A DNA stretch of 64,000 bases from Monodelphis domestica (taxonomy: Eukaryota > Chordata > Mammalia > Didelphimorphia > Didelphidae): contig NC_077227.1 in assembly GCF_027887165.1 (NCBI RefSeq), positions 546,339,189 through 546,403,188 on the forward strand. Reading direction: 5' to 3'. Positions 43,822-50,884 of this stretch are shown here, one piece after another. The notes beneath the pieces are model-generated. The model ran no database searches. It was not told the DNA's origin and was given only the letters and a program-made list of their open reading frames with translations. The position numbers were made by a program, and so were the translations under genes. The stretch's first letter is position 1; every line of letters begins with the position of its first letter.

Positions 43822-43868
43822 AATATTGGTGTTTTTTTTTTCACTTTCAGAATATTCATTGAAGAACA
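43822..43868 (+). other. Splice acceptor and 5' untranslated lead of the repeat-protein exon
   Basis: A run of ten T followed by a cactttcag acceptor ends at 43850, a textbook mammalian 3' splice site. The exon would begin AATATTC at 43851, 18 bases before the ATG of the 1086-codon frame. No upstream exon could be identified in the window. Confidence 0.55.
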
Positions 43869-46800
43869 ATGTTGCCCCACAAAAATTTTAGGAGTCCGGC
43901 ATTGTTGCTTCAGAGTAATTGTCCACATTGCTCATGGAAGGAGAGTGAACAGGCCATGTTACATGTCAATCATACACAGTCAGGCCAACAGAAATTATAC
44001 TCTGAAAGTCATGTCTGTGAATGTTCACATTCAGCTGAGATTCCTGTCCCTCAGGGAAAATCTGGCATATGGCCTCCACTATCAGATCCTGATAAATGTA
44101 CCCTTGAGAGTCTATCCTGTGATGATACCCAACAAACTGAGAAATCCCCACCTCATGGAAAAGTTGCCATCCAACCAATGCTATCAAGTCAAGGGAAATT
44201 CACTAATGAAAGTTCAGGTTACGAAAACTTACAGTCCATTGATTCTACCCTTCCTCATGGAAAAGCTACAATCTGGCCTCCACTGTCAAGCCGGGGAAAA
44301 TTCTGGGAAGACTCATACCAAATGGAGAGTGTCATTCCTCGTGTAAAGGCAACCATTCAACAGATTCCATCAGGCAGAGCAAAATTTACCTCTGAGAATA
44401 CAATCTGGGAAGGCTCACAATCAAATCAAACTACCATCTACCATGGAAAAAGTGGTGTCTACCACCCATCATTTGGCAGAGGGAAATTAATCCGTGAAAG
44501 TCCAGTTTGGGAAGGATCACGACCAAATGGGACTCCTCTCCAACTTGGAAAAATTGGCATCCAGAATACATCTGTAACTAGAGGAAAATTCAGTCGTGAG
44601 AATTCAGCATGGGAAGGCTCACAACCAGCTGAGATTTCCATCTCTCAAAGTAAAGCTACTATTCAGCTCACGCCATCAAATCAGGAGAAATTTACCTATG
44701 AGAACATAGTCTGGGAAGGCACACAAGCACATGATACTTCTCTATCCTGTGGAAAACCCCCTGTCCCGAATCCACCATTGATTCGAGGAAAATTAATCCA
44801 GGAGACTCCTACATGGGAAGCATCAAAACTACCAGAGACTCACTTGTCCCAAGGGAAATCTATTGTGCAGCACCCACCATTAGCTCGAGGAAAACTCAAT
44901 CATGACAATGCAGCATGGGAAGATTCACAACCAGTTAAGACCACCCTGGCTCATAGAAAAGCTGCACTCTGGCCTCCAAAGTCAAACAAAGGGAAATTCT
45001 CTTCTGAGAGACCAGTATGGGAAAGTTCACAATCAACTGAGGTTTTCCATTTGCATGGGAAATCTGTTGTTTGGCCCCCTCCTCCTCTAAGGCGAGGAAA
45101 ATTGACTTGTGAGAATCCAGGGTGGGAAGGGACACAGTCATCTGAGACCTCCATCTCTCATGGAAAGCCCACAGTTCAACCTCCACCATCAGGCAGAGGG
45201 AAATTCACAAATGATAGTCCAGTATGGGAAGATTCACAGTCATCTGAGACTTCCCACTCTCCTGGAAAAACTGTTGTTTGGCCCCCATCATTAGGCCAAG
45301 AGAAATTCAGTGGTGAAAGTTCTGGGTGGGAGGATTCACAAACTGATGAAAACCCCCAATCCACAGGAAAAGTTTCTGTTTGGCCCCCACCATCAGGTCA
45401 AGGGAAATTCAACGGTGAGGATCCACAATGGGAAGATTCACAGCCAGGTGAGATTCCCCAGCCTCCTGGAAAAGTAGCTATCTTGCCTTCAAGCAGAGGA
45501 AAATTTACTTATGAGAATCTAGGCCAAGAAGGCTCACAACCAGCTGAAAATAACCTCTCTCATAAAAAGCCTATTGTCTGGCCTCCACCACCAAACCGAG
45601 AAAAATTCATCTCTGAGAATATAGCTTGTGAAGGTCCAAAACCAGCTGAGACTACATATGGCCAGGGCAAGTCTATCATCTACCCATCATCATCAAGCCA
45701 AAGAAAATTATTGAATGACAATTCCATGTGGGAAGGCTCCCAATCAGGTGAAACTCCCTTTCTTAGAAAAAATGCAAATCATCCCTCACCAGGCCCAGGG
45801 AGATTCACTTGTGACAGTCCAAAGTGGAAAGGTTCACAAAATGCTGGGACTCCCCATCTTTTCAGTAAAAGTGGCACCAGAATCCCACAATTAGGCAGAG
45901 GGAAATTGAGCTTTGAGAAATTTCTATGGCAAGGCTCTCAACCATCTGAAATTCCTCACGCAAAACTTACTGTCAAACGTTCGCCATCCTGTTTAGGGAA
46001 ATTTACTTATGGTAAATCACTTTGGGAAGGTTCCCAACCAGGTGAGACTATCTTAACTCAAAGAAAAGTTAATATCAAGCGCTCACCATCATGTCAAGGG
46101 AAACTTGCTTATGATAAATCAGTTTGGGAAGGTTTAAAACCTGCTGAAGCCCCACTACAGCGTGGAAAAACAACAGTCTGGCCTCCACCACCCAGGCGAG
46201 GGAAATCATCCAGTGAAGTTTCATCATGGAAAGATAAAGAGTCAGCAGAGACTCCCCATTCCTTTGGGAAAATTATCACCAGAGGAAAATTCAACTGTGA
46301 GAGTTCAGGGATAGAAGGTTCACAAAATGCTGAGATTGCCTATGTTCTTGGAAAACCAGTGATCCAGACCCCACAGTCAGGCAAAGTGAAGTTAACTTTT
46401 GATGATCCTGAATGTGAAGGCACAGAACCAGCTGAGACTTCTCTCCCTCACAGCAAAACTACCATCCAACGCAGACAATCTTTTCTTGGGAAATTTACCT
46501 GTGAAAACCAAACATGGGAAGGCACACAATCAGATGAGAATGCCATCCCCAATGGAAAAACTTTAAGCTGGTCCCCACCAGCAGGACAAGGAAAATTCTC
46601 CTTTGACAGTTCAAGCTGTGATGATTCCCAAGTATTTGAAACTACCCACTCTCATGGAAAAGGTCCACTCCATCTCCAACCATTGGGCAAAGGGAAATGC
46701 ATACAGGAGAAACCAGGCTGGGAAGGTTCACAGTCAGCTGAATCCCCTCTTCCCATTGGAAAGTCTGCTGTTCAGCCCAAAACAGGAAGAGAGAAATTCA

Positions 46801-47129
46801 CCTGTGAGAATTCAGTTTGGGAAAACTCTCAGTCAACCAAACTTTCTCACAGAAAAACTCGAGTTCAGCACTCTGCATTGGTTCGAGGAAAATTCCGCAG
46901 TGAAAGTACAATCTGGGAAAGCACACAACCATCTGAGGTGCCTCTGCTTCAGGGAAAATCTGCTGTTTGGCCCCCACAATCATCCCGTATGAAATTCACT
47001 TGTGATAGTCCAGTGTGGGAATGTTCACAAAAAATTGAGAGTTCCCTCCATCGTGGAAAAGTTGCTTGGCAGTCTCCTCCATCAGGCAGAGGGAAATTTG
47101 CTGGTGCACACACATCTTGGGAAGGCTAA
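43869..47129 (+). CDS. Large tandem-repeat protein (1086 aa), family not recognised
   Basis: A single open frame of 1086 codons. After a head of about 40 residues, itself perhaps a decayed unit, the protein is about 31 tandem copies of a unit that is usually 34 residues (102 bp). The pattern is G-K-F/L, x2-3, E/D, x2-3, W-E-G/D-S-Q, about 8 variable residues, G-K, then often V-W-P-P-P and S-G-R/Q. Units diverge strongly, yet Gly-Lys, Trp-Glu and Ser-Gln stay. Shorter units (28-33 residues) and one of 35 differ by whole codons. No signal peptide, membrane segment, zinc-finger pattern or known catalytic motif is visible; the protein is basic, polar and probably disordered. The ATG has A at -3, and an in-frame TGA at 43860 closes the frame upstream, so any earlier coding exon would need another frame. 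It sits 18 bases inside a probable exon. Function unknown; a germ-line or structural repeat protein is possible but unsupported. A repeat-rich noncoding RNA is the main alternative. Confidence 0.72.
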   Translation: MLPHKNFRSPALLLQSNCPHCSWKESEQAMLHVNHTQSGQQKLYSESHVCECSHSAEIPVPQGKSGIWPPLSDPDKCTLESLSCDDTQQTEKSPPHGKVAIQPMLSSQGKFTNESSGYENLQSIDSTLPHGKATIWPPLSSRGKFWEDSYQMESVIPRVKATIQQIPSGRAKFTSENTIWEGSQSNQTTIYHGKSGVYHPSFGRGKLIRESPVWEGSRPNGTPLQLGKIGIQNTSVTRGKFSRENSAWEGSQPAEISISQSKATIQLTPSNQEKFTYENIVWEGTQAHDTSLSCGKPPVPNPPLIRGKLIQETPTWEASKLPETHLSQGKSIVQHPPLARGKLNHDNAAWEDSQPVKTTLAHRKAALWPPKSNKGKFSSERPVWESSQSTEVFHLHGKSVVWPPPPLRRGKLTCENPGWEGTQSSETSISHGKPTVQPPPSGRGKFTNDSPVWEDSQSSETSHSPGKTVVWPPSLGQEKFSGESSGWEDSQTDENPQSTGKVSVWPPPSGQGKFNGEDPQWEDSQPGEIPQPPGKVAILPSSRGKFTYENLGQEGSQPAENNLSHKKPIVWPPPPNREKFISENIACEGPKPAETTYGQGKSIIYPSSSSQRKLLNDNSMWEGSQSGETPFLRKNANHPSPGPGRFTCDSPKWKGSQNAGTPHLFSKSGTRIPQLGRGKLSFEKFLWQGSQPSEIPHAKLTVKRSPSCLGKFTYGKSLWEGSQPGETILTQRKVNIKRSPSCQGKLAYDKSVWEGLKPAEAPLQRGKTTVWPPPPRRGKSSSEVSSWKDKESAETPHSFGKIITRGKFNCESSGIEGSQNAEIAYVLGKPVIQTPQSGKVKLTFDDPECEGTEPAETSLPHSKTTIQRRQSFLGKFTCENQTWEGTQSDENAIPNGKTLSWSPPAGQGKFSFDSSSCDDSQVFETTHSHGKGPLHLQPLGKGKCIQEKPGWEGSQSAESPLPIGKSAVQPKTGREKFTCENSVWENSQSTKLSHRKTRVQHSALVRGKFRSESTIWESTQPSEVPLLQGKSAVWPPQSSRMKFTCDSPVWECSQKIESSLHRGKVAWQSPPSGRGKFAGAHTSWEG

Positions 47130-47260
47130 CAAGCAGCAGAAGCACCTCCATCATTCAGAAGATCAGCCTTCCAGATTACAACATCAAGTAAAGGGAAACT
47201 GTCCATTGAAGGTCAAGTTTGAGAAGGCTTTCCATTTCAAAAACCTTCTAACTGGTACCT
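43989..47260 (+). repeat. Tandem array of about 32 diverged 102-bp units
   Basis: The DNA is a tandem array with period 102 bp; recurring words are ggaaaattc or gggaaattc, tgggaaggctcacaa and tctggcctcca. Neighbouring units around 45970-46140 share the words KRSPSC and WEG and look like a late local duplication. The array passes the stop at 47127-47129 and fades by about 47260. Confidence 0.85.
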
Positions 47261-48249: not shown

Positions 48250-48515
48250 GATTCAGAGGATCAGAGGGCCAGTTTTGAGACTGAAGAGATCTCAAAGGTT
48301 ATCTAGTCTAACCTCTTGATTCCATAGCTATTATTATATTGCACATTAATAGTCTGATGAGTCTGTAATGCTATTTGTGTGAGTAATCTCTCTACTGATG
48401 AGAGAGTTTAAATGATTTTGCCACAGAAATACAGGTAGCAATTAAAAGAACTGGAGTCCAAGGCCATGTTTTCTGACAACAAATCTAGTTCTTTCTACTA
48501 TTCCATGTTGACTTC
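48250..48515 (-). mobile_element. MIR/THER1-type SINE
   Basis: gatctcaaaggttatctagtctaacctc, then ccacagaaatacaggtagcaa and a worn head. Confidence 0.55.
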
Positions 48516-48970: not shown

Positions 48971-50884
48971 TGACTTCAAGAATCTGTGAGTTTTACCAGC
49001 ATGGGTTCCCCTAACATTAGCACAAATCACCAATGACTCTAACTCTTAAATAAGTTGTTCTTCAGGAGCTTATGTGACTAAGAAATTCTCATCTGTTGAT
49101 GTTCAAGCTTAAGGTGATGAACCCTCACAACACCAAATAAAGCTGGTCCTGGAACAACAACAACAAAAAAGACACACAATCCACTGCCGGACTCAATCTT
49201 GGAAGAACTTGGCTTTTGTAAGTTTGCAAAATTGGCATAGAGTAACTAATTATCACTTCTGTACTGCAGTGAAGGAACAGTGAAAGCTTCATGGAATTTT
49301 TCTGTTATAAATATGTATATTAACATAGAATTAGAAGATAATGACAGATGATTCTCCATGTCAATGGGAAAGGATCCCTTTATTAATTAGCAAGCACTTG
49401 TTGAGTAGCAGAGGTACTGGCTGTTTCTAGAAGACCTTTTTGCTAATGATTTTTTATGAGCAATTCTGCCACAAGTGGAAGAAAACAAATTGACTTATAG
49501 TTACGTAATGTTTTTCTCAGCCCCATTCAGTGTGAGAAATGATATCTGTTGTATAGTAGAAACTAGTAGACACTTTCAGCCAACCCAGCAGTTTTTATAA
49601 ATTGAGGGATTAGATTCTTCCCCCTAAGGTTTTGCTATGCCAAATTTTAGTCCCTTCAACTTTTTTAAGGGGTTCAACACTTTTAAAATTGATTTTGTGA
49701 GTCATGTCCTAGGCTTCAGAACATTGAAAATGATTAGAAGTTGACTTCTCCTTTCACTTTTCACATTTAATGCTGTTATTAACAAGATCAGAAAAAATGT
49801 TATTACATATAATTCAGAGAATAAATGAAGTTACTAAGCATGATAAAATAATATTAGATTAGAATACCTATATATTCATAGAATCATTGTGATACAATAT
49901 TTTGATGCAGGATTATTAGACAGGCCACTTCTACTAGAGGAAGAGTCATGGGCACATGGAGCCAGCAAGATTGATTGCTGAGGGTTCATGAGTATAGTCC
50001 CTGAGAGCAAAGATTTTGCTAATAAACCTTATTTTTTATGATTTTCTCATCTACTTACTAGTAGAGATCAAAGGTACCATATTGCAATTTCTAACACCTT
50101 TTTTTCTACTTTAACATAAAATTATATAAATGTGTAGAATAGAAGGAAGTATAGAATCAGCTGATAGTCCAGATAGAGCTATTTGAGATGTAGTTGCAGG
50201 TATGGCTTCATTTCCCAAAGCCACAGAGAAATTGGAATCTAAAATGGCAATTAGACAGATGTACATTTTTTATATCCTTATTGTTTAAATGGGCATTCCA
50301 CAGTGGTTTTTCTTCCAATCAATAATTTAATATGAGTGGAACTCTATCCCTGTTATAAAGAATTCTAGATGTGACTGACAAATTTATTATTCAGTTTTGT
50401 TGTTGATGACATTGTTTCTGTTTTTTTTTAATGACTTATTCTTTCCATTAACAAGCATTTACTTAGTCCAGTCTGGAAGCCAAGAATAGTGCACAAGTAT
50501 TATGGGAAATTCAGAAGCAATGAAAGCTATTGCTTTTGCCTTGACTTATGTTCTTGAAAAGTTTAGTATCCTCATCTTTTATCGTTATTAAAAGCATTCC
50601 TTAAAATTTAAACAAGTAAAGATGAATAGTAAAGTGTTACTCTGGATATTTCTTGTAAAAGCCATCACAAAATCTGAATATAGATGTTCAGGTTTCACTG
50701 ACACTGGGAAGCCTCCTGAATGAACCAAAGTAGCCTAGAAAAATCAGGAAAATAATATATTTCAAATTGCTGTGAAATCTGAGAAGCCCTAGAGAGTTAA
50801 AGGCATTATTAGTGCTAATTATTATTATCGTTACTTATCAGTTAAGTAGTAAATCAATGTTAGCTATAATGTGTTATGATGTAC
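48971..50884. other. Unassigned noncoding DNA
   Basis: gctaataaaccttatttttta near 50018 recalls an LTR polyadenylation region, but no boundaries can be set. Confidence 0.4.
49136..49141 (+). promoter_or_regulatory. Possible polyadenylation signal AATAAA
   Basis: A canonical AATAAA about 2 kb downstream of the repeat-protein stop, followed by ggtcctgg and CA-rich sequence. It is the first plain AATAAA I noticed downstream in this orientation. Chance occurrence in AT-rich DNA is likely. Confidence 0.2.

Follow-up and report, generated by a model that had tools for sequence, protein, structure and literature searches.

A diverged array of 34-residue units in a long open reading frame of the opossum Monodelphis domestica, a candidate coding exon

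Long arrays of diverged units encoded within a large exon are known from the repeat proteins ALMS1, MKI67 and FAM186A. The BRC repeats of BRCA2, each of which is about 35 residues long, also lie in one large exon, where they carry an F..A motif and are spaced from one another. Microtubule-binding repeats of the Tau/MAP4 type are slightly shorter at about 31 residues, number three to five per protein and include a PGGG turn, while the MELT motif of KNL1 takes the form M-[DE]-[LIVM]-[ST]. The MELT array of KNL1 is described as rising in copy number with degenerating sequence (PMC7292645), and S/T-Q clusters are defined by the presence of at least three Ser-Gln or Thr-Gln pairs (S/T-Q) within 100 residues (PMC10942620).

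Here we describe a locus that invites comparison with these systems, located in a stretch of 64,000 nucleotides of Monodelphis domestica DNA (the window). An open reading frame on the plus strand extends from the ATG at position 43869 to the TAA at 47127–47129 (43869–47129), and comprises 1,086 codons without an internal stop; the corresponding stop-to-stop frame starts at 43863. The predicted protein has a mass of 119 kDa and a pI of 9.0. An initial annotation of this DNA had described the frame as filled by a 34-residue repeat, and this description is confirmed by a residue identity of 28% at lag 34, compared with a median of 6% over lags of 5–149. At the DNA level, the tandem array has a period of 102 bases.

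Individual units were cut by motif, with one boundary placed by hand, and were then aligned to build a profile. This procedure yielded 31 units of approximately 34 residues each (44091–47126, plus strand), 30 of which are complete and the last of which is truncated by the stop, in keeping with the count of about 31 given in the initial annotation. The profile itself matches 32 units at 43992–47189, all in one frame, and its last match runs past the stop codon. The additional unit is located upstream of the 31 cut units, at 43992–44084 on the plus strand. Ahead of it, the N-terminal 41 codons (43869–43991, plus strand) include no recognisable unit, given that the first profile match begins at 43992. 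No match to the profile was found outside the array within 264 kb, comprising the window and 100 kb on either side.

When compared with the systems named above, the locus exhibits partial likenesses. As in ALMS1, MKI67 and FAM186A, a long diverged array occupies what is predicted to be one large exon, but the sequence of the unit is not known to be related to theirs, and our searches of proteins of approximately 597–6,037 residues returned no match of any kind. The BRC repeats of BRCA2 are similar in unit length and in residing in a large exon, whereas F-x-x-A occurs only once in the 1,086 residues and the opossum units are arranged head to tail. Predicted disorder, a basic character and a richness in Lys, Pro, Ser and Gly are reminiscent of Tau/MAP4-type repeats; in contrast to these, there are 32 units, PGGG is absent from the frame, and Trp is abundant (3.3%). 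As is predicted for the opossum protein, the KNL1/Spc105 MELT array is a disordered stretch in which a short motif recurs in many diverged forms, although M-[DE]-[LIVM]-[ST] has no match in the frame and no Pfam match was obtained. Finally, the protein resembles S/T-Q cluster domains in carrying at least three S/T-Q per 100 residues, a class that is compositional rather than a homologous family. A RAD51AP1-like W-x-P-P motif was also considered and was dropped, since just 5 instances of it occur among the 1,086 residues.

The consensus of the unit is GKFTCENPVWEGSQPAETPLPHGKATIQPPPSGR, and its conserved core can be written as K-[FL]-x-x-[ED]-x-x-x-W-E-[GD]-[ST]-Q-x-x-E ... G-K-x-x-[VI]-[WQ]-x-P-P. 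Exactly 34 residues are present in 22 of the 30 complete units, and the other eight range from 28 to 35 residues, with two of them deviating by 6 residues. The most conserved columns among the 31 aligned rows are K2 (30), K24 (29), F/L3 (28), E11 (26) and S/T13 (26), followed by W10 (24), Q14 (23) and E17 (23). The initial annotation had named fixed Gly-Lys, Trp-Glu and Ser-Gln positions. The recurring Trp-Pro-Pro that had been reported alongside them is indeed present, but it is weaker than claimed and represents a minority form: W-P-P occupies columns 28–30 in 8 of 31 units, and at column 28 Gln (11 units) is more common than Trp (9 units). Net charge per unit varies from −4 to +5, with acidic units at approximately 12–14 and basic units at approximately 18–21.

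Codon choice sets one of these positions apart. Among the 26 units with Glu at position 11, GAA is used 25 times and GAG once, unlike Glu6 and Glu17, where GAG is preferred (14 of 20 and 16 of 23, respectively; Fisher p = 2e-6 and 1.5e-6 for the two comparisons with Glu11, calculated as if the units were not kin). The codon at Glu11 is therefore fixed beyond the needs of the residue, which a purely protein-level view leaves unexplained, and this bias may reflect either plain ancestry or a constraint at the nucleotide level, for example a splicing enhancer serving an exon of this great size. Lys2 gives no such sign, because its use of AAA (29 of 30) is statistically indistinguishable from that at Lys24 (24 of 29; p = 0.10) and AAA is prevalent across the whole frame (76 of 87 Lys codons).

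Several lines of evidence indicate that, for most of its past, the array evolved as coding sequence. When the consensus was allowed to evolve neutrally along the tree of the units, a mean of 38.6 and a minimum of 16 stops accumulated in 2,000 runs, and a star model gave a mean of 37.3 and a minimum of 18 in 3,000 runs, compared with none observed. Across the DNA of the array, the five alternative frames contain 25, 80, 81, 40 and 46 stops, versus 0 in the open frame. A codon model fitted between units returned an omega of 0.634 (lnL −2663.02, versus −2673.51 at an omega of 1; twice the difference is 21), the pooled dN/dS is 0.57 when the 30 complete units are compared in all 435 pairings, and the length differences of the eight off-length units are all whole codons. 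Base differences among the complete units average 43%, with 42%, 40% and 46% at codon positions 1, 2 and 3, respectively. Given that this excess at third positions is modest, the stop simulation and the codon model were used as the stronger tests. The proposal that the frame is a coding exon is thus upheld in the sense that the array has been under purifying selection, with the proviso that selection measured between units reflects the entire past rather than the present state.

The units are also old. Pooled dS is 0.98 for all pairs and 1.05 for neighbours, and the corresponding values of dN are 0.56 and 0.55; because similarity is no greater between neighbours than between other pairs, the array shows no sign of recent local duplication. 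A dS of about 1 is close to the synonymous divergence of human and opossum genes, such that the array would date from near or before the marsupial-placental split, a figure that is rough because synonymous sites are close to saturation. The initial suggestion of a lineage-restricted gene, if taken to mean a young one, is therefore not supported as worded: recent birth misfits units this diverged, and a young, lineage-specific gene is a less probable reading than an old one that changes fast or was lost elsewhere. The array was also found at only one place in the genome. A search of the opossum's own assembly (3.59 Gb, 13 contigs) gave one match, which is this locus, with 42 of 110 candidates scored. 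In a second search, in which all 61 of 61 candidates were scored, 15 of 16 matches fell inside the array, and the sole match outside it (E = 0.11) contains a stop.

The initial annotation could match the protein to no known family, and this is also our result for the collections that were searched, namely Pfam, PDB sequences and proteins of approximately 597–6,037 residues. No Pfam-A match exceeded its curated cut-off, the only hit being DUF6663 (E = 0.25; 11.1 bits versus a cut-off of 27), and no PDB chain matched in sequence at E values up to 10. In a set of 5.8 billion proteins, no match at E = 0.001 was found in length ranges of approximately 597–1,900 and 1,898–6,037 residues; these searches require shared 5-residue words, use at most 100 words, and scored 5,463 and 3,083 candidates, respectively. 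As a control, a LINE-1 fragment from the window produced 81 matches from 97 candidates in the same set, 11 of which were named (1 from Monodelphis domestica and 10 from Sarcophilus harrisii), with the Monodelphis match reaching 80% over 75% of the query. Proteins of opossum and Tasmanian devil are therefore present, at least in part, in the set. A literature search on such repeat genes gave no title or abstract opening that describes this protein among the matches listed, and no RNA families were found within the window.

The predicted protein is rich in Ser (13.5%) and Pro (9.9%), with a GRAVY value of −0.90. An AlphaFold2 model of units 11–13, based on a 28-row alignment that included 27 other triplets, reached a pLDDT of only 52.7 and a pTM of 0.11 and exhibited no secondary structure, and we accordingly describe the protein as predicted to be disordered. 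A folded 34-residue solenoid of the TPR or PPR type was considered and is not supported, since no helix-turn-helix was predicted for units 11–13 and no TPR or PPR match was obtained from Pfam.

A predicted 3′ splice site on the plus strand (43832–43850), identified by sequence and matrix score, consists of ten T residues followed by CACTTTCAG, which would place the start of the exon at 43851. With a simple frequency matrix, this acceptor ending at 43850, the best one immediately upstream of the frame, ranks 51st among the 4,380 AG sites of the window, and a higher-scoring acceptor-like site is present at 44055, within the array. The ATG is located 18 bases downstream of the predicted acceptor, and the short 5′ leader between them (43851–43868, plus strand) carries an in-frame TGA at 43860–43862, which means that translation would start in this exon if the acceptor is used. 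Coding thus probably begins here, and exons farther upstream, if there are any, would be untranslated leader. A point against the proposed gene is that no CpG-rich promoter bin was found in the window, where more than 8 CpG occur in just one 1-kb bin, 44001–45000, which lies inside the frame. Donor-like GGTGAG sequences are present at 45414, 45447 and 46041, inside units where they form Gly-Glu codons, and could permit cryptic splicing within the array.

At the 3′ end, the TAA at 47127–47129 on the plus strand falls in the Ser/Thr column of the last unit, in which TCA is the most common codon. Translation of the region beyond it (47130–47230, plus strand) reveals the remainder of unit 31 and the start of a next unit, with the profile matching as far as 47189; this partial unit has a second stop at its Trp position, after which nothing is recognisable. 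A stop in this column with remains of the array behind it argues that the C-terminus has decayed and, as read from these remnants, the protein was evidently somewhat longer in the past. Such decay may mean that the gene itself is being lost. An AATAAA sequence at 49136–49141 (plus strand) is a candidate polyadenylation signal, and other candidates are found at 48441, 48677, 48935 and 49820.

On balance, this single-locus frame is likely the principal coding exon of a genuine marsupial gene that has escaped description, and we propose that its predicted-disordered product would serve as a multivalent scaffold, a combined reading to which we assign about an even chance of being correct. The protein would be a docking chain offering approximately 32 variants of one short binding motif, in which each unit may bind a copy of the same partner and the differences in unit charge may tune affinity along the chain. 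Tandem duplication probably gave rise to the array long ago, and the units then diverged without further local duplication. We favour a scaffold because a disordered chain that repeats an aromatic-acidic motif about 32 times resembles, in principle, docking arrays such as that of KNL1; the docking role itself we infer from this anatomy of repeats plus predicted disorder. A broader and more tentative proposal, which we consider possible while leaning against it, is that the locus represents an ancient single-copy mammalian family missed by annotation. Its disordered chain of approximately 32 Trp-Glu-Gly-Ser-Gln units would predate the marsupial-placental split, would have been lost or become unrecognisable elsewhere, and would still be expressed in a restricted marsupial tissue such as the germ line or early embryo.

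One alternative is a non-coding satellite that happens to be open, for which a tandem array with a 102-base period speaks. The stop counts, omega and the single locus rule out a satellite or chance frame for the history of the array, as do the codon-whole length changes, and we regard this explanation as extremely improbable. A serious rival to the scaffold reading is that a once-functional gene died recently in this species, leaving a silent exon whose frame is still open for lack of time. Consistent with such a death, a stop interrupts the array within unit 31 and decay follows behind it; translated through that stop, unit 31 agrees with the consensus at 12 of 34 positions, whereas the other 30 units average 16.9. 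The lack of a matching protein of approximately 597–6,037 residues in the searched set, opossum included, is likewise compatible with a gene whose expression has ceased. However, 1,086 codons have remained clear of stops and frameshifts, the acceptor and ATG are intact, and the stop may just be the present C-terminus. We consider recent death rather unlikely.

Two further rivals accept a functional protein and differ in what the unit does. If the protein bound a lattice, with each unit on one repeat of a polymer such as a microtubule or filament in the manner of tau or nebulin, then unit length would be a spacing rule. The 22 of 30 units of exactly 34 residues, the basic pI, the predicted disorder of the chain when alone and the two nearly invariant Lys residues per unit agree with such a role, but the eight off-length units, the two deviations of 6 residues and the swing in unit charge do not, and neither a tau PGGG, a nebulin SD..YK nor a Xin motif occurs in the frame. 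We regard lattice binding as decidedly unlikely. Still more improbable, we believe, is a phospho-array in which the Ser/Thr-Gln of each unit is phosphorylated by kinases of the ATM/ATR type, for example in meiosis, to recruit readers. S/T-Q is found at positions 13–14 in 22 of 31 units, and the total of 28 compares with 14.2 expected from composition and with 26 as the largest value in 2,000 shuffles; moreover, 68% of 100-residue stretches hold at least three S/T-Q (maximum 4), which agrees with the cluster rule of PMC10942620. Set against this, repeats enrich any conserved pair, and conservation is equal or greater at Lys2, Lys24 and Glu11. Many S/T-Q cluster proteins are not ATM/ATR targets, according to the same paper (PMC10942620), and neither a TQ.F motif nor a simple basic K[KR].[KR] nuclear signal is present in the frame.

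Should the gene be expressed, a 3.3-kb exon under selection and absent from the proteins searched would illustrate how a large coding gene escapes annotation, here by having no family plus, probably, narrow expression. Its approximately 32 copies, all of which are old and separately diverged, would provide a marsupial-side test case for the ageing of short-motif arrays. As a single-copy locus, it can be compared across marsupials and sought in placental mammals and monotremes.

The surroundings of the array agree with the initial impression that no other gene is nearby, since none was recognised among open frames of at least 110 codons across the window and its two 100-kb flanks, a listing that left out frames with more than 30% of one residue and would miss genes with short exons. 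The neighbouring frames that could be named are presumably only LINE-1, retroviral pieces and one processed relic. The latter, at 154889–155236 (window numbering), we take to be HELLS-like, and it is intronless with a broken frame, while the pieces at −11740 to −9636 (window numbering) are presumably related to retroviral protease and RNase H. A probe for a marsupial SINE had 0 matches, and other SINE probes had 5 and 1. An apparently young LINE-1 with frames of 1,339 and 351 residues lies on the minus strand at 66774–72318 (window numbering), 2.8 kb beyond the window.
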